A stretch of 47,215 nucleotides of DNA from the NCBI GenBank assembly GCA_023379125.1, contig JAMCSY010000027.1:69249-116463 (forward strand), in the 5' to 3' direction. A model generated the notes under the pieces. The model searched no databases and was not told the DNA's origin. It was given only the letters and a program-made list of their open reading frames with translations. A program made the translations under genes and the position numbers. Source of the stretch: Patescibacteria group bacterium (GTDB lineage Bacteria; Patescibacteriota; Microgenomatia; Daviesbacterales; UBA10151). Below, one piece after another: positions 37,478-47,215 of the stretch (positions within the stretch are counted from its first letter, which is position 1; each line of letters begins with the position of its first letter).

Positions 37478-38323
37478 ATGAACTGCCTTAATCGTCTCAT
37501 CAAATACTTACTAGCCTTTTTGCTGTTTTTTAGTATTTACCTAATCCCGATATCGGTAATTGCTCAATCAAGCTCAATTGAGGTAACCTCAGTTTTTGAC
37601 TTAGCCGATAAAGAAGCTCAGAATGGCGATATTATTTCCAACATTGAAGGTGTGGGGTTAACTCGCACAACAGCAGCTTATGATCAAAGACTCTTTGGGA
37701 TTGTGCAAAATGATCCAGTAATTGTTTACCGGAGGTTGGATAACAGTGGCACACCCATCGCCCGCTCTGGTGTGGCAGAAGTTAACGTTACAACATTCAA
37801 CGGTGATATTCAGAGTGGAGATTACATTACCTCTTCAGAGATACCCGGTAAAGGTCAAAAAGCTGATGCTTCAGGATATGTTATCGGTGTAGCCCTGGAG
37901 TCGTTTACAAGCCAGGATGGTCAAGAATATGATTACCAGCCTATTTCTAATCCTAGCAAAATACAGAAATTAAAGACTGGTCAAATCCAGGTAGCTTTAA
38001 AAATAGAATATGCTGAGATTACCCGAACCAGATTCTTATCTGGCCTTCTCAATATTATCAACACTGCCCTATTCAAAAATTTAGAAGATCCTAATAAATT
38101 TGTTCAGCTTTTTAAATACACCTCAGCTGGATTGGTAATTTTGGTTAGTTTCATCATTGGCTTTTTATCATTCTCTCGTTCAATTCCCAAAAGTATTGAA
38201 GCAATTGGCCGGAATCCACTGGCTCAACGGGCAATTCACTTCTCAATTATTCTGAATATTGTCTTGACTATCATCACTGCTCTACTTGGTATTGGTGCTG
38301 CCTTACTGATCTTGAGGCTTTAA
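37478..38323 (+). CDS. Secreted fibre-type ectodomain fused to a c-subunit-like membrane hairpin
   Basis: 281 residues. A signal peptide or first anchor is at 8-29. The ectodomain (about 35-180) has 'YDQRLFGIVQNDPVIV' and 'NGDIQSGDYITSSEIPGKGQ', a pattern I know from the C-terminal domain of tail-fibre-like and beta-strand-repeat proteins. Two membrane segments (about 214-232 and 252-279) are joined by 'SIPKSIEAIGRNPLAQRAI', which matches the polar loop of ATP synthase subunit c (EAIARNPxA). TM2 reads 'ILNIVLTIITALLGIGAALL': where subunit c has the ion-binding Glu (LTEA), this has LTII, and no acidic residue is in either helix. It is the first gene of the F1 operon and has a good ribosome-binding site (AAGGGG). 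It probably cannot carry protons. No family name is known to me. Confidence 0.75.
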   Translation: MNCLNRLIKYLLAFLLFFSIYLIPISVIAQSSSIEVTSVFDLADKEAQNGDIISNIEGVGLTRTTAAYDQRLFGIVQNDPVIVYRRLDNSGTPIARSGVAEVNVTTFNGDIQSGDYITSSEIPGKGQKADASGYVIGVALESFTSQDGQEYDYQPISNPSKIQKLKTGQIQVALKIEYAEITRTRFLSGLLNIINTALFKNLEDPNKFVQLFKYTSAGLVILVSFIIGFLSFSRSIPKSIEAIGRNPLAQRAIHFSIILNIVLTIITALLGIGAALLILRL

Positions 38324-38422: not shown

Positions 38423-39127
38423 ATGCCCACTCTTAACCTTGAAAACATCATTCTATTGGCAATTTTGCTGCTCACCACAGCTTTGTATCTTTGGGAACAT
38501 CGTAAAAACCAAAAACTCTCCAAAATTCTCGAGCTCGAGCCAGAAGCGATCACCAAATCTACTGAGTCACAAAGTTATAAGATCATCCATGATGCTATTC
38601 GTAAAGCTCAGGCTATTCTTGGTAGTGCCGAGACAGAAAGTATCAAATTAGTGGCTGACAGCCGTACCACCAGTGAGAATCTGCAAAAAAAGTACGCAGA
38701 AGAGATAGAAAAATATAAAAACCAACTGCAAGCCTCTTTGCAGGAACAAGTTAGTGTCTCCCAATCAGAGTTTAATAAATTTCTTGATGATCTAAAGTCT
38801 CACAGCGAACAGTCACAAACACTTAATCAGCAAGTAACCGAGCAACGTACTCGCGAAATTTTTGAACTCTTTGAACAAAGACTAGCCACATTTTTAACCC
38901 AAACTGAACAGGAAAGTATCTCTGCCGTGGATTTGGAGATCAAAGCTGCTAGGCAGCTGATTGATACTTACAAATCACAGCAGCTAGCTTTAATTGATGA
39001 AAATATTATTGCTGTTTTGGAAAGAACCCTAGCTATTGTCCTTAACAAAAAACTACCATTAAAAGATCAAATGGATTTAGTCTTCGAAGCTTTAGAAAAA
39101 GCTAAGACAGAAAAGTTTGTTATTTAA
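38423..39127 (+). CDS. F-ATPase subunit b-like peripheral stalk protein
   Basis: 234 residues: one N-terminal membrane segment (4-22), then a long charged coiled coil ('LQKKYAEEIEKYKNQLQASL'), and a C-terminal segment 'VLNKKLPLKDQMDLVFEALE' like the end of subunit b. Subunit b links the membrane part to F1 through delta. It is longer than typical b (about 160). It lies 100 bp after the c-like gene and 3 bp before the delta-like gene. Identification depends on the operon context. Confidence 0.75.
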   Translation: MPTLNLENIILLAILLLTTALYLWEHRKNQKLSKILELEPEAITKSTESQSYKIIHDAIRKAQAILGSAETESIKLVADSRTTSENLQKKYAEEIEKYKNQLQASLQEQVSVSQSEFNKFLDDLKSHSEQSQTLNQQVTEQRTREIFELFEQRLATFLTQTEQESISAVDLEIKAARQLIDTYKSQQLALIDENIIAVLERTLAIVLNKKLPLKDQMDLVFEALEKAKTEKFVI

Positions 39128-39130
39128 TTT

Positions 39131-39616
39131 ATGTATCAAGATCAAATAAATATTTTTATCAGTACTGTTTATGGTAAATCTGAGGCTACCAGACAACTAG
39201 CTACTCTAAAAAGTTATCTGCTAAATAGATTATTTTCCAATGACCAAAGTATGCTCACCTCCCTAGAGCCAGAGCAAATTCGCTGGATGCAGAGTTTAGG
39301 AGAAGATTTCTACCAGGGAATTAATCAGACAAATGTTTATCAAATTCTCCAAGCAATCGAAGAACATTTAGCTCAACTGGAGCCACTGATCATCTACTTG
39401 CCTTTCGTCTTACCGGACGCCCAATTACCAAATCTAGGCAAATACGCACGAAACTTATTTGGTCCTGAGTGTTTAGTGGAAATCAAATTTGACCCTGACT
39501 TAATTGCTGGACCAGCTTTAGTCTGGAAAGGTGTATATAAAGATTACTCAATTAAACAAAAACTTGCTGATCATCATCAGGAAATCATGGATAGCCTCAA
39601 ACTAAAATTGAACTAA
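39131..39616 (+). CDS. F-ATPase subunit delta-like
   Basis: 161 residues, soluble. The C-terminal 'EIKFDPDLIAGPALVWKGVY' followed by 'KDYSIKQKLADHH' matches the OSCP/delta C-terminal pattern (vDpsLiGGivvrvGdkviDgSv). Delta joins the stalk to the top of F1. It is placed between b and alpha, the standard order. Confidence 0.75.
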   Translation: MYQDQINIFISTVYGKSEATRQLATLKSYLLNRLFSNDQSMLTSLEPEQIRWMQSLGEDFYQGINQTNVYQILQAIEEHLAQLEPLIIYLPFVLPDAQLPNLGKYARNLFGPECLVEIKFDPDLIAGPALVWKGVYKDYSIKQKLADHHQEIMDSLKLKLN

Positions 39617-39631
39617 ATTCGAAGATATCTT

Positions 39632-41149
39632 ATGGCTAATACAAGCACTTCTTCAGCATCCACAGCAGCAAATCAAAAGCCTACTGAAGTTGGTTTTGTC
39701 CGTTCAGTCAAAGATTTTTTGGTTTACCTTGATGGCTTACCAACCCTCCAGATTAACGATTTAGTGCAAAACGAGGCGGGGCTGCGTGGTTGGGTCACTG
39801 CCCTGCAAAAAGATAAAGTTGAGGTGCTGATGGTTGATGATGGTGAAGTAACTCCTGGGCAAATGTTCCAGCGTGGCCAAACCAATCTATCTGTACCTGT
39901 TGGTCCATTTTTACTAGGTCGGGCAGTTGATCCCTTAGCTGTCCCCATTGATGGCAAGGGCAAACTAGCTGTTACTGACACCACGACACTGGCCGAACTT
40001 GACCCCACTGCCAAAGGCATTTCTTTTCGTGAGTTTATTAATCACCAATTTGATACAGGTATTACTCTGGTCGATTCTTTAATCCCAGTTGGAAAAGGTC
40101 AAAGGGAGTTAGTTCTAGGAGATGCCCGTTCAGGTAAAACTAGCTTCTTAATCGATATTATTGTTAATCAAAAGTACACTAAAACTGTCTGCATCTATGC
40201 TCTCATTGGTAAACCCATTACTGAGGTTAGAAACATGATTGATATTCTCCACTCTAATAATGCCTTGGATCACACAATTGTGGTCGCTGCCTCTTCAACT
40301 GATCCTGCTCCCCTAATCTTTTTAACTCCCCAAACTGCCTTCTCTATTGCTGAATATTTTCAGAAGCAAGGCCAAGATGTCTTAATTATTCTGGATGATA
40401 TGGGTAATCATGCAAAAATCTATCGGGAGATTTCTCTACTGGCTAATGTAGCCCCAGGTAGAGAATCTTATCCTGGTGATATTTTTTATCAGCATGCTCA
40501 TCTTTTGGAAAGAGCTGGAAGTTTTAACCGTCAAGCAGGCGGGGGTTCGATTACCGCTTTGCCAGTTATTGAACTGAACTTAAACGATTTCACCACTCTA
40601 ATTCCTACTAATGTCATGGCCATGACTGATGGACATTTATTATTCAAGTCTGCTCTTTATAGCCAAGGGCAAAGACCAGCTATTGACCTTTCTCTGTCCG
40701 TTTCCCGGGTAGGACAACAAACTCAAACCCATACCCAAAATCTGCTAGCAACCAAGGTCAAGCAAGTTTTAGCTGAAGCCACCCAGCTAGAAACAGTCAG
40801 TAGGTTTAGCTTTGAGTTACCTTTTGAAACACAGCTATTGCTCAGACAAAAAATCTTGATTGAAGAAATGATTAAGCAAGAACCTTTGATATATATTTCT
40901 AAAGAGATTCAATCAATCCTACTTGCTCTACCTTTTACAGGCATGTTTCAAGACAAAGATGCTGAGTTTGTGCGCCAAAACTTACGTAAAATTATTGAAA
41001 GTTTTGCTAGTGATCCACAGCTTCTCAATACCACCAGGGCAGTGCCTGAGATGAAAGATGATAACCAGTTAATCGCCCTGCTAGAAAAAGCTACATCCAG
41101 ACTGGAATATTTACTAGGACTAACCAAAAAAGGAGCGCAAAAAGCCTAA
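39632..41149 (+). CDS. atpA: F1-ATPase subunit alpha, divergent
   Basis: 505 residues. Recognisable: 'GRAVDPLAVPIDGKG', the P-loop GDARSGKT at 163-170, 'IYALIGKP' in place of the usual 'IYVAIGQK', and the arginine-finger motif SVSRVG with R359. The P-loop differs from the nearly constant alpha sequence GDRQTGKT: the Gln that contacts Mg-nucleotide is replaced. The N-terminal Ser/Thr-rich stretch is short. Normal length. It supplies the non-catalytic nucleotide sites and the catalytic arginine finger. Confidence 0.92.
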   Translation: MANTSTSSASTAANQKPTEVGFVRSVKDFLVYLDGLPTLQINDLVQNEAGLRGWVTALQKDKVEVLMVDDGEVTPGQMFQRGQTNLSVPVGPFLLGRAVDPLAVPIDGKGKLAVTDTTTLAELDPTAKGISFREFINHQFDTGITLVDSLIPVGKGQRELVLGDARSGKTSFLIDIIVNQKYTKTVCIYALIGKPITEVRNMIDILHSNNALDHTIVVAASSTDPAPLIFLTPQTAFSIAEYFQKQGQDVLIILDDMGNHAKIYREISLLANVAPGRESYPGDIFYQHAHLLERAGSFNRQAGGGSITALPVIELNLNDFTTLIPTNVMAMTDGHLLFKSALYSQGQRPAIDLSLSVSRVGQQTQTHTQNLLATKVKQVLAEATQLETVSRFSFELPFETQLLLRQKILIEEMIKQEPLIYISKEIQSILLALPFTGMFQDKDAEFVRQNLRKIIESFASDPQLLNTTRAVPEMKDDNQLIALLEKATSRLEYLLGLTKKGAQKA

Positions 41150-41154
41150 AACAT

Positions 41155-43396
<2,242 letters not shown>

Positions 43397-43452: not shown

Positions 43453-43737
43453 ATGAGTGTATTAAAAGTCAAAATAGTAACCCCTAAAGCAACTATTTTC
43501 CAAGGAGACGCAGACTCTGTTTCTTCAACTAACAGTTCTGGCAAGTTTGATATATTACCAGAACACGCTAACTTTGTAACTTTAATCAACAATCACCCCA
43601 TTACCCTTTGTTTAGCTAACCAGCAGACCAAAAGTTTTACTTTCCCTCTAGCAATTATTTATACTCATAATAATCAAATAGATATCTACACGGATATTAC
43701 TCTACAGTTAGAGAACATCTCCAACACTACTCACTAA
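43453..43737 (+). CDS. atpC: F1-ATPase subunit epsilon, N-terminal domain only
   Basis: 94 residues: 'LKVKIVTPKATIFQGDADSV' and 'GKFDILPEHANFVTLINNHP' are the epsilon beta-sandwich. The C-terminal helical pair that blocks ATP hydrolysis in normal epsilon (about 130-140 residues) is missing. Last gene of the operon, 56 bp after beta. The lack of the inhibitory arm would favour a constantly active ATPase. Confidence 0.85.
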   Translation: MSVLKVKIVTPKATIFQGDADSVSSTNSSGKFDILPEHANFVTLINNHPITLCLANQQTKSFTFPLAIIYTHNNQIDIYTDITLQLENISNTTH

Positions 43738-43835: not shown

Positions 43836-43916
43836 AAATCTAGGTATTATTTTTACTCAATTACCTTGGTAAAATCTAGGCAGTCCCCTCATATAATCTC
43901 TTGACAAATCTAGGCA
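43836..43916 (+). repeat. Three AAATCTAGG(C/T)A direct repeats upstream of the fibre gene
   Basis: AAATCTAGGTA at 43836, AAATCTAGGCA at 43872 and 43906 (spacing 36 and 34). The third overlaps the -35 TTGACA. A fourth, AAATCTAGGTA, is inside the gene at 44632. Possible operator for the HTH domain encoded here or for another regulator. Confidence 0.5.
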
Positions 43917-43930
43917 AATTAGGGCATTCT
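43901..43930 (+). promoter_or_regulatory. Possible promoter TTGACA-18-CATTCT for the fibre gene
   Basis: TTGACA 43901-43906 and CATTCT 43925-43930, which leaves a leader of about 80 nt. An isolated TATAAT at 43892-43897 has no good -35. Confidence 0.45.
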
Positions 43931-44017: not shown

Positions 44018-47000
44018 ATGAAGAGTGATCGTCTGCAAAAAGCCAAACTCGCTGAATATTTACAAACTCGGGTGAATCCGACCAAATCTGTTGCTGCTAA
44101 GCTATCCTCTGGCTCACCTTTATTAAAAATTGGAGAGGCAGCTAAAGTACTTGGAGTTTCCATTGATACCTTACGTCGCTGGGAAGAAGTAGGCAAAATC
44201 AAATCAATTAGGACAGCCGGTGGTACTAGGCTATACTCAATAGAATTACTTCAACAAGTCGCTGGCAAAAAACGCTCTTACAGGAGGGTTGAGCAAGCTG
44301 ATAAACTTCAAGCCAAATTACAAAGCAAAGATACAGTACAATTGCCTCCTAGCCAACTCCTTCCTACTCCAGCCGGTGAAGACGATTCAATTATCTCCCA
44401 GCTGCCCAATAAAGAGCTTGCTAATTTGATAACACCAGGCATTTCCAACGAGGTTGAACAAATCATTCAATCTCAACAAGCTCATTCTTTATATGAATCT
44501 CCTCTAACTCAACAACCAGAAATTGATACTAATGAGAGCATTATTGCTATACCCGAAGATAAACCCGAAACTACCCTAGAAGCAGACAAAATTAGCAAAA
44601 ATAAACTTCATATTTTAAATATAAAACATAGAAATCTAGGTAATTTAGCCTCGGTTAGAGAAAAAATCTATGCAGGGGCTACTCTACTGTTTGTTAGTTT
44701 TACATTATTAATAAGTGCCCTCGCTTTTACAAAAATCACTGGCAGTGTCTTGCCTTTTGCCTTACCCACCCCTTTAAAACAGCTAGCAGCAAACTTACAA
44801 TTGGATTCTCAACCAATCTCTTTGGCAGGTGTTAACCCAAATAACTTCTCACAGAATTTGGCAACTATTCCTAACTTAAATAGCGGGAAGGTTCTAGCTG
44901 GCACTACTGTTGCCCATTATTTAGAAATCAACTCGGACACAGCTATTAATGGCAGCCTGGCAGTTTCGACCGATGGTGTTTTTGGTAACTCAGTTACCGC
45001 TCCAAATATTATATATGGTGTCCGAGCTGGAGCTAATGTTGCTGTTTCTGCTGGACAAACTCCAACTATTTCAGTTAATTTACCAGCCCTCGTTAACTCT
45101 TTCCAAGGCTCAACAGGTGCCATCAATTTAGCTGCTGGTACTGATATTGCTATTTCTGGCTTAACTATTTCTGATACTGCAACCCTTTCTTCCGTGCGCG
45201 GTAGAGGTGGCTGTGACTCATGTATCGTTGATGATGATGTCAGTAATACTTTAACCTTAGATTCCTCCAGTTCAGTGTCTGGTTCAGCAATTAAGTCTGG
45301 GACTGTAGCTAGCAGCTATGGTGGAACAGGTATCACATCATATACAAAAGGTGACATTATATATAGCTCTGCTACAAGTACTCTGGCTACATTAGGCATT
45401 GGTACTTCTGGTCAGGTTTTGCAAGTCTCCAGTTCCGGAGTTCCTTCCTGGGCTAACGCTACAGGCACCTTGAGCGGTGGTGGGAATAATGGTTATGTTG
45501 CTTATTGGACCGGGGCTACTTCTCTTTCATCTGAACAATATTTGTCTACATCAAGAGGTGGCACTGGGCTAGATGGCTCAGCTGCCAGCAATGGGCAACT
45601 GCTGATTGGCAACGGCACAGGTTATTCTTTGGCTACCCTAACCCCAGGAACCGGAGTTACTGTCACTAATGGAGCAGGTACCATCAGTCTGGCCGCCAGT
45701 CTGCTAAATGCAGTTGACGGGATTGGAACTACTGCTTCATATTCTGGTTTGGAGTTTGCCGGGGGGTCAAGCGATCAGTTAAGCCTGCTACAAGGTTGCT
45801 CAGACGGAGAGCTATTGAAATGGGACAACACCAGTAAAGCTTGGGTCTGTTCAACTGATTTAGGTGGTTCAACTGCCATAATTAATGTCGCCGAAGGTGC
45901 AACTACTTATAGTGGTATTGATACTCTGCGTTTTAGTGCCAATGATTTTAATGTCTCTAAAACAACTTCTACTGCTGATGTTTCAATAGATTATACGAAT
46001 GGCCAATTGGCAACATCAGGGCAAAATGGTTTCTTGTCTGCTGCTGATTGGACCACCTTTAACTCCAGACAAGCAGGTGATGCTGACCTGACAGCATTGG
46101 CTGGACTTGGTTCCACAGGTATTGCAGTGAGAACTGGCTCAAATACCTGGTCTCAAAGAATGATCACTGGGACTACCAATCAAGTGATTGTCACCAATGG
46201 TGATGGAGTCTCTGGCAACCCGACTCTTTCTCTACCCCAAGATATTGCTTTAACTTCCTCTCCTACCTTTAGTGCTTTAGCTTTAACAGCTACTTCTAAC
46301 CAACTGCTTTTGGGAACTACCAATATTGGGACTTTAACCTGGACTCCTTCTACTACTCAAACTATTACTCTACCTGATGCTACAGGTACTGTAGCTTTAG
46401 GAACAGGGACTTCTGGACAGATTACTGGATGGACTGGGACTTCCTCCTTAGGAATATTAACTGATCTACCAACAGCTACTACCATTGGTTCTAGTTATAT
46501 CTACAGAGTGGGAGGAACTGATGTGGCTGTTACTGATGGTGGAACTGGGAAGAGTTCCTGGACACAGTATTCCATACCATATCTTACTGATACATCTACC
46601 TTTGGAGAAATAGCTATTGGGACTTCTGGGACAGTGCTCGTTTCTTCAGGTACAGGTTATACTTGGAGTACAATTTCTGGAGTAGGTGCTGTAACAGGTA
46701 CTGGTACTTCGAACTATGTGACCAGATGGACTGGTTCTTCTTCTTTGGCCACTGGTGTTCTGTATGATAATGGGGCTTATGTAGGTATAGGCACTACTAA
46801 TCCCGGATCACTACTGACTGTGGGTAATAATACCTTTACTGTTAACTCTTCTGGGAATATCTTAGGTAATACTTTAGCTTTAACAGCTTCCTCCAATCAA
46901 ATAGTCCTAGATACTAATGGGACTTTAACCTGGACTCCTTCTACTACTCAAACTATTACTCTGCCTGATGCTACAGGTACTGTAGCTTTAGGAACAGGGA

Positions 47001-47215
47001 CTTCTGGAGGACTGGCTGCCTGGAATGGAACTAACTCCTTAACCAATCTTACCTCTTTAGATGTGAGTAGAGGTGGAACTGGACACACTTCCTGGACACA
47101 ATATGGTCTGCTGTATGCTGATACTACTTCTTCCCTTTCTCAGGTAGGAATAGGAACTACCGGACAGTTACTAGCTACTACTGGGACAGGTTATTCTTGG
47201 ATAGATAATAACTTC
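44018..47215 (+). CDS. Giant beta-strand-repeat surface protein with N-terminal MerR-type HTH (partial)
   Basis: 1066 codons are visible and the frame is open at the window end. Residues 35-80 are a MerR-like HTH: 'LLKIGEAAKVLGVSIDTLRR' then 'WEEVGKIKSIRTAGGTRLYS'. A polar linker (about 85-210) follows, then one membrane segment ('IYAGATLLFVSFTLLISALA', about 223-243), and then a very long Gly/Thr/Ser-rich ectodomain. The ectodomain repeats phage tail-fibre-like units such as 'YGGTGITSYTKGDIIYSSAT' and 'GIGTSGQVLQVSSSGVPSW'. A 90-bp DNA segment (46328-46417) recurs at 46919-47008 with one change. The DNA-binding end would be in the cytoplasm and the fibre outside. Start ATG 44018 has no strong ribosome-binding site. 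It lies 280 bp after the ATPase operon. Confidence 0.85.
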   Translation, partial: MKSDRLQKAKLAEYLQTRVNPTKSVAAKLSSGSPLLKIGEAAKVLGVSIDTLRRWEEVGKIKSIRTAGGTRLYSIELLQQVAGKKRSYRRVEQADKLQAKLQSKDTVQLPPSQLLPTPAGEDDSIISQLPNKELANLITPGISNEVEQIIQSQQAHSLYESPLTQQPEIDTNESIIAIPEDKPETTLEADKISKNKLHILNIKHRNLGNLASVREKIYAGATLLFVSFTLLISALAFTKITGSVLPFALPTPLKQLAANLQLDSQPISLAGVNPNNFSQNLATIPNLNSGKVLAGTTVAHYLEINSDTAINGSLAVSTDGVFGNSVTAPNIIYGVRAGANVAVSAGQTPTISVNLPALVNSFQGSTGAINLAAGTDIAISGLTISDTATLSSVRGRGGCDSCIVDDDVSNTLTLDSSSSVSGSAIKSGTVASSYGGTGITSYTKGDIIYSSATSTLATLGIGTSGQVLQVSSSGVPSWANATGTLSGGGNNGYVAYWTGATSLSSEQYLSTSRGGTGLDGSAASNGQLLIGNGTGYSLATLTPGTGVTVTNGAGTISLAASLLNAVDGIGTTASYSGLEFAGGSSDQLSLLQGCSDGELLKWDNTSKAWVCSTDLGGSTAIINVAEGATTYSGIDTLRFSANDFNVSKTTSTADVSIDYTNGQLATSGQNGFLSAADWTTFNSRQAGDADLTALAGLGSTGIAVRTGSNTWSQRMITGTTNQVIVTNGDGVSGNPTLSLPQDIALTSSPTFSALALTATSNQLLLGTTNIGTLTWTPSTTQTITLPDATGTVALGTGTSGQITGWTGTSSLGILTDLPTATTIGSSYIYRVGGTDVAVTDGGTGKSSWTQYSIPYLTDTSTFGEIAIGTSGTVLVSSGTGYTWSTISGVGAVTGTGTSNYVTRWTGSSSLATGVLYDNGAYVGIGTTNPGSLLTVGNNTFTVNSSGNILGNTLALTASSNQIVLDTNGTLTWTPSTTQTITLPDATGTVALGTGTSGGLAAWNGTNSLTNLTSLDVSRGGTGHTSWTQYGLLYADTTSSLSQVGIGTTGQLLATTGTGYSWIDNNF
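46328..47008 (+). repeat. Near-identical 90-bp repeats in the fibre gene
   Basis: 46328-46417 and 46919-47008 differ at one base (CTACCTGATG / CTGCCTGATG); both encode GTLTWTPSTTQTITLPDATG and onward. The identity at third positions shows a recent copy or gene conversion. Confidence 0.85.

Follow-up and report, generated by a model that had tools for sequence, protein, structure and literature searches.

The stretch of DNA analysed here (the window; 47,215 nucleotides, positions 69,249 to 116,463 of contig JAMCSY010000027.1, assembly GCA_023379125.1) comes from a Patescibacteria group bacterium and ends inside a gene, at 44018..47215 on the forward strand, that encodes a DNA-binding domain, one membrane helix and a giant surface fibre in a single open reading frame (ORF). 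From the N-terminus, the predicted protein consists of a tail, a BldC/MerR-type winged helix-turn-helix (HTH) domain (residues 36-79; 44123..44254, +), a low-complexity linker of ~140 residues, a single predicted transmembrane (TM) helix (residues 219-237; 44672..44728, +) and a repeat-rich, tail-fibre-like ectodomain (44729..47215, +) that is cut off by the end of the contig. Comparison of this gene with its relatives suggests that the product is probably a membrane-anchored fibre and, at the same time, a one-component DNA-binding protein that autoregulates, and would probably repress, its own gene.

The ORF contains zero internal stops and remains open at the last base of the window, which takes up the 3′ portion of contig C27 (116463 bp) of genome G000 (0.97 Mb, or 972 kb; 97% complete), and since the last base of the contig is also that of the window and falls inside the fibre, the C-terminus is unassembled; extending the contig, as had been proposed, did not recover it, and a search of the other contigs of the same genome found the fibre on none. 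The Pfam MerR family PF00376 matches residues 37-73 above its cut-off (E=4e-13), and PHROG 31660, annotated as “tail fiber protein”, matches the ectodomain (E=2e-7). Residues 219-237 form the only hydrophobic segment (mean Kyte-Doolittle hydropathy 2.1), with four Lys/Arg on its N-terminal side versus two on the other; TM and topology assignments rest on hydropathy and charge, and the charge bias is consistent with an N-in orientation. The first ATG is at 44018 and no other ATG occurs before residue 715, and although a GTG occurs at codon 109, the HTH that precedes it is the most conserved part. The fusion of HTH, one TM helix and fibre described in the first-pass annotation is therefore confirmed by the intact frame together with the domain and hydropathy evidence. 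Its label “MerR-type” holds at the level of the family match, but the nearest relative of the domain is BldC (PDB 6ama) and not a classical dimeric MerR protein; its “thousand-residue” fibre is a lower limit, as relatives reach ~4400-4500 aa.

The architecture is widely conserved. With residues 1-285 as query, matches were found in 36 of 45 family genomes, many of them in ORFs of 1000-4500 aa (up to 4511 aa), and both architecture and frame recur in other Microgenomates and, within a single Daviesbacteria-like family of Patescibacteria, in ~30 genera. Every readable locus has one or two HTHs, a linker, one TM helix and then the fibre, the beginning of which, in the loci read, often carries a VLAxTxxxxFLExNSDTxINGSL-like motif. 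In an alignment of 14 N-terminal parts there are 18 invariant columns, and all 18 lie inside the HTH, which places this domain under the strongest constraint. A frameshift, a chimeric contig or a translation start after the HTH could in principle have produced a spurious fusion, and it is true that the contig ends in repeats and that one relative keeps its operators after loss of most of the HTH; yet the identical architecture and frame appear in >25 independent contigs, 44018 is the sole ATG before residue 715 and the HTH is the most conserved part, so that both a faulty join and a late start were rejected and the chance of an artefact is negligible. The relative in question (L074:16100-16619) retains operators and fibre, with a deletion or an assembly fault accounting for the missing HTH.

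Two complete relatives (L070, L118) carry Peptidase_S74, the self-chaperone of trimeric phage fibres, and Gottesmanbacteria fibres contain collagen repeats; on the strength of these domains, which are found in relatives only, the window fibre being without its C-terminus, the fibre is likely to be trimeric.

Upstream of the gene, between it and the epsilon-like gene of an F1-like ATPase operon, lie three direct copies of AAATCTAGGYA, which we regard as putative operators: AAATCTAGGTA at 43836..43846, and AAATCTAGGCA at 43872..43882 and again at 43906..43916 (all +; spacing 36 and 34). The third copy stands directly after the -35-like TTGACA of a putative promoter, TTGACA-N18-CATTCT (43901..43930, +), an arrangement conserved in relatives, whose consensus is TTGACA-N18-TANNNT. 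A generic scan for sigma-70 promoters and terminators was uninformative; it demands a better -10 and misses this promoter. A three-copy 9-mer arose in 1 of 5000 shuffles of the epsilon-fibre intergenic stretch and was reached by 4 of 336 window tiles, two of which are that stretch itself. Genome-wide, AAATCTAGGYA has seven exact copies in 972 kb, five within the fibre locus, and the variant AAATCTATGYA has two, one inside the fibre gene. Two intragenic copies lie close to the TM codons, AAATCTAGGTA just before them (44632..44642, +) and AAATCTATGCA, encoding KIYA, at the TM start (44664..44674, +). Intragenic copies before the TM helix, read as KIYA, also occur at L071:7378-7420 and L083:13030-13064, the latter with three in a row at a 12-bp period.

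In relatives with the HTH type of the window (class I, TLRRWE ... GGTRLY), direct repeats of AAATCTATGYA with a 10-bp period occupy the -35/-10 spacer. Their fibre promoter reads TTGAC-AAATCTATGC-AAATCTATG-TACGAT, the 18-nt spacer being two tandem 10-bp repeats, and a third repeat usually follows ~22 bp further on, then an inverted fourth. Allowing at most one mismatch, AAATCTATGYA reaches 5.9 per kb in the start regions of class-I fibre genes versus 0.06 per kb in the remainder of these loci; loci L069-L148 partly duplicate contigs of the family genomes. An exact AAATCTAKGYA is present in 25/27 class-I HTH promoters versus 0/21 other HTH-fibre promoters drawn largely from the same genomes (Fisher 3e-10, computed before G034 was re-filed by its wing GGTRLY). 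Across the 45 whole genomes the tandem site (two mismatches or fewer) has 22 matches, compared with 2 for a reversed-pattern control, and 19 of the 22 lie immediately upstream of 17 HTH-fibre genes, including those of G006 and G018, where the F1-like operon sits on another contig; sites are also present in G008 and G023, genomes without such an operon. Away from the fibre genes there is one exact match upstream of a small membrane protein (G005:C1:195342), a two-mismatch match inside ftsZ of G037 and another two-mismatch match in G015:C1. The target appears to be mainly the fibre’s own gene and not a wide regulon. A short 5′ element resembling GCAGACGGA recurs between promoter and start codon of class-I fibre genes (L069, L078, L093).

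The repeats change together with the DNA-binding domain. BldC, the best solved structural relative of the fibre HTH (6ama, E=1.6e-5), binds as protomers to 9-bp direct repeats, AATTXXXX(C), for example CAATTCGGACAATTCGGACA; its Arg30 reads a C-G pair and its Lys26 makes a base contact near guanines (PMC5859096). The equivalent of Arg30 is invariant in 42/42 and 23/23 HTHs; those of Thr27, Trp31 and Arg47 are invariant too. The residue aligned to Lys26 is Lys in clade 2, whose operator shares GGAC with that of BldC, and Asp in class I, whose operator has TATGC. When the sites of BldC (AATTCGGACA), clade 2 (AACTTGGACA) and class I (AATCTATGCA) are aligned, all three share the AA start and the CA step, in parallel with the invariant Arg30, and the GG core is present where residue 26 is Lys and absent where it is Asp. 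In G014, the only class-I HTH with Asn at this position is also the only one without any site at one mismatch or fewer. The correspondence between residue 26 and operator is a prediction at the level of sequence. HTHs of the other clade (Lys at 26; HRRY- or QRRY-like wing) are paired with a different repeat, AAACTTGGACA, at a density of 4.3 per kb at the fibre start versus 0.05 per kb elsewhere.

In four Gottesmanbacteria contigs the fold itself is replaced: the cytoplasmic end of the fibre consists of two Phage_int_SAM (integrase SAM-like) DNA-binding domains (E<=1e-15), followed by collagen repeats (L097:9865-11262, for which a TM helix was read; L098:16756-20787; L099:16542-20303; L100:17792-20611). 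A palindrome around TTGATATWTCAA lies 30-45 bp upstream of these genes, and all four of its copies in 1.18 Mb of loci are there. Such joint replacement of fold and operator is hard to explain unless the fibre’s own domain binds the site. The repeats might otherwise be the operator of another, soluble regulator, the fibre HTH serving as a protein-protein anchor. HTH folds are able to bind proteins, that of RodZ binding MreB, and small MerR-like soluble proteins exist in most family genomes; but the window genome yields just one further HTH match, a 63-aa protein that has a wing of another kind and is encoded next to a restriction-enzyme gene, G036 and G040 carry small HTH proteins and no tandem site, the DNA-contact residues of the fibre HTH are invariant, and the kind of operator goes with the kind of HTH on the neighbouring fibre gene, even where a SAM domain and a palindrome take over. 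We consider a soluble regulator quite improbable.

The HTH might also bind the repeats mainly as a physical tether, joining chromosome to membrane or fibre base, or fixing the gene at the envelope during translation. Sites within the same gene, including coding sequence near the TM codons, would suit such a role, as would the occurrence of different DNA-binding folds at the same place (mostly MerR/BldC, integrase SAM in Gottesmanbacteria), which fit any form of DNA attachment. A tether needs no promoter, however, and the sites are placed exactly between -35 and -10 and about the probable start, as expected for transcription control, so that we regard this explanation as unlikely. The first-pass annotation had offered two roles for the HTH, control of genes or use as an anchor. 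The first is supported by the comparative evidence, namely cognate-looking repeats in 43836-43916, the very stretch singled out in that annotation, that change with HTH type and fold, and a function solely as anchor is less likely.

In the autoregulatory mechanism that we favour, the cytoplasmic BldC-type winged HTH would bind the direct repeats in its own promoter while the single TM helix links it to the extracellular tail-fibre-like ectodomain. Binding would block transcription and so limit, by negative feedback, the output of a protein that is very expensive to make at thousands of residues; repression is the most likely sign of control, given that the spacer between -35 and -10 is taken up by repeats and that others follow close to the probable transcription start. 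In an assembled fibre, if it is trimeric, the repeats would face several HTHs at once, and, more speculatively, the HTH could act from the nascent chain, as it is synthesised first. In addition, tension, assembly or attachment, the last of which the first-pass annotation had suggested as the thing sensed, might alter binding. Binding could conversely activate the fibre gene through a MerR-like distortion of the long-spacer promoter, as positive feedback or as a switch triggered by attachment. The operator does lie in an N18 spacer as in MerR promoters, and the consensus promoter is long-spaced, but extra repeats, located close to the probable start or beyond it, favour blocking, and this BldC-type HTH has no MerR dimerisation helix and is followed by a variable linker; activation therefore seems highly improbable.

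Several observations weigh against autoregulation as outlined here, or against parts of it. The promoters of close relatives share descent, and the counts are accordingly non-independent. The motif was found post hoc in the window and then tested in other genomes. At the window locus itself the -10 is weak (CATTCT), the repeats are spaced by 36 and 34 and not by 10, and the window’s own AATCTAGGCA retains GG despite Asp, so that the residue-26 rule is not absolute. The repeats of class-II paralogs are different and less certain. Activation from this spacer position is what classical MerR proteins bring about, and control could accordingly have the opposite sign; moreover, a membrane-bound protein has to locate its own promoter. 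Class-II paralogs such as L172, L165 and L164 have promoter repeats of their own: CATAACTTTTT is present three times with an 11-bp period at L172, and ACCTATGCATTGGTTAACCAATAC occurs in L034 and L164.

Of the known systems, Streptomyces BldC (PDB 6ama/6amk; PMC5859096) is the closest to the fibre HTH. Both have a winged HTH with the DNA-contact residues Thr27, Arg30, Trp31 and Arg47 and the interface residue Gly44, the head-to-tail binding of BldC to direct repeats has a candidate parallel in the direct repeats of the fibre promoters, and the clade-2 operator AACTTGGACA is close to AATTCGGACA of BldC; the fibre HTH may work in a similar manner. BldC, however, is a soluble protein of 68 aa with many target genes, a 9-bp period and Lys26, whereas the fibre HTH is fused to the membrane, has its putative sites almost only at its own promoter, with a 10-bp period, and carries Asp in class I. 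The window HTH scores 29.5 bits with NCBIfam HTH_BldC and does not reach the cut-off of 77.

The transmembrane transcription regulators ToxR, CadC and TcpP share with the fibre an N-terminal cytoplasmic DNA-binding domain, one TM helix and a C-terminal ectodomain; a survey of such regulators (PMC10269533) mentions neither MerR domains nor Patescibacteria in its main text. Of the broad definition given in that survey, a predicted DNA-binding domain and a predicted TM region in one protein are present in the fibre, and control of target genes is suggested by the operator-like repeats in its own promoter. ToxR and CadC differ in having an OmpR-type winged helix and small sensors, against a fibre of 1000-4500 residues headed by BldC-type or integrase SAM domains; Pfam found no OmpR/PhoB-type Trans_reg_C in the window protein, in which MerR/HTH_17 families were found. 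Classical MerR proteins have a MerR winged HTH and an operator in the promoter spacer in common with the fibre, but possess a dimerisation helix or effector domain and a palindrome where the fibre has a variable linker, a TM helix and direct repeats, and no NCBIfam model of a MerR subfamily reached its cut-off for the window protein. Judged by predicted anatomy, the fibre belongs, in a broad sense, with the one-component transmembrane regulators, but neither with the ToxR family nor with the classical MerR proteins. Phage tail fibres and endosialidase-type fibres resemble it in the tail-fibre match of the ectodomain and the Peptidase_S74 of L070 and L118; unlike them, the fibre is anchored to the membrane of a bacterial cell and bears a DNA-binding domain, and no phage genes were seen nearby. 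Literature searches, with subscription journals outside their coverage, found no description of an HTH-TM-fibre architecture.

The gene follows the F1-like operon directly, as the first-pass annotation had it: the last base of the epsilon-like gene is 43737, and the fibre gene, with the same orientation, begins at 44018. The operon (all +) opens with a c-subunit fused to an external domain (37478..38323; signal peptide, fibre-type ectodomain and a c-subunit hairpin without carboxylate in its second TM helix, TM2), followed by b-like (38423..39127; TM and coiled coil, conserved in position), delta-like (39131..39616; weak OSCP/b-delta match), alpha-like (39632..41149; PF00006, E=1e-67), gamma-like (41155..42009; PF00231, E=8e-26), beta-like (41993..43396; TIGR01039, E=3e-143) and epsilon-like subunits (43453..43737; N-terminal domain only, PF02823, E=1e-13). 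Similar operons are widespread in Microgenomates and occur at two Parcubacteria loci. An AlphaFold2 model of the c-fusion (pLDDT 92) has a hairpin matching c-ring subunits (TMt ~0.8), and its modelled external domain is weakly similar to head-fibre-like proteins of phages (8pkh, E=7e-4, and, lower, phi29 prohead). None of 11 aligned c-fusions has Asp or Glu in TM2, which makes ion translocation unlikely, and subunit a was not seen among the mapped operon genes; the operon thus departs from F1Fo ATP synthase in both the c-subunit carboxylate and subunit a. An ATP-driven rotor with an outside domain, pumping no ions, is possible on this sequence evidence. F1-like ATPases of Mycoplasma (gliding and F1-X0 types; PMC8406192, PMC3369863) are likewise duplicate F1 alpha/beta operons, here tied to surface proteins, but differ from the present set, which has full b, delta, gamma and epsilon subunits, a c fused to an external domain and no subunit a seen in the operon; the window sequences fall below the NCBIfam cut-offs for the Mycoplasma types. 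A beta/alpha search of the window genome found the F1-like operon as sole match and no canonical ATP synthase, which most relatives have.

That fibre and operon may work together, as had been suggested, is borne out in part. Of the 45 family genomes, 23 have an HTH-fibre gene immediately 3′ of beta/epsilon and co-oriented with them (G000, G002, G004, G009, G010, G014, G015, G016, G020, G021, G025, G026, G027, G029, G030, G031, G032, G034, G038, G039, G041, G042 and G044), while at the loci from Levy-, Woese- and Amesbacteria and WWE3 this gene stands just upstream of the c gene and points away from it; the recurrence of the pair in two gene orders argues for a functional link. The external beta domain of the c-fusion is related to domains within giant fibre ORFs, and in L074 and L116 this domain accompanies the HTH. 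In Parcubacteria (L142:1513-3084, L143:9326-10627) the external domain of the c-fusion itself is preceded by an HTH-like segment at the N-terminus and by one more TM helix; these two loci are the whole basis for HTH-c fusions, and an HTH_17 match was obtained in L143 only (E=0.0015, below the cut-off). On the other side, G008 and G023 have HTH-fibres and no operon, which rules out an obligatory coupling. The idea that the fibre-promoter repeats also control the F1-like operon was rejected too, as no class-I sites were found upstream of the c gene.

If autoregulation is correct, an adhesin-like fibre would report its own abundance, or state, to its promoter with neither sensor kinase nor soluble regulator, an unexpected property for such a protein, in tiny uncultured bacteria that combine very small genomes with a presumed lifestyle of attachment to others. 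It would also provide a testable protein-DNA code, made up of residue 26 and the operator core, account for DNA-binding domains at the ends of giant surface proteins and link these fibres to an F1-like ATPase operon. We put forward only tentatively, and with more doubt than confidence, a broader scheme for Microgenomates and perhaps wider Patescibacteria. In it, giant surface fibres would as a rule be their own transcription factors, unrelated domains (BldC-type HTH, integrase SAM, HTH_17-type) being recruited to the cytoplasmic end, each with a matching promoter operator; the HTH of the nascent chain could shut its own promoter in cis, and the fibres would work with a non-ion-pumping F1-like rotor bearing a related external domain. 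In a search across the phylum, the HTH_17-like domain of L143 matched HTH-like stretches in Patescibacteria ORFs of ~740-3336 aa (G119:C21, G327:C11, G243:C33 and G285), which suggests a wider distribution of large proteins with a DNA-binding end.

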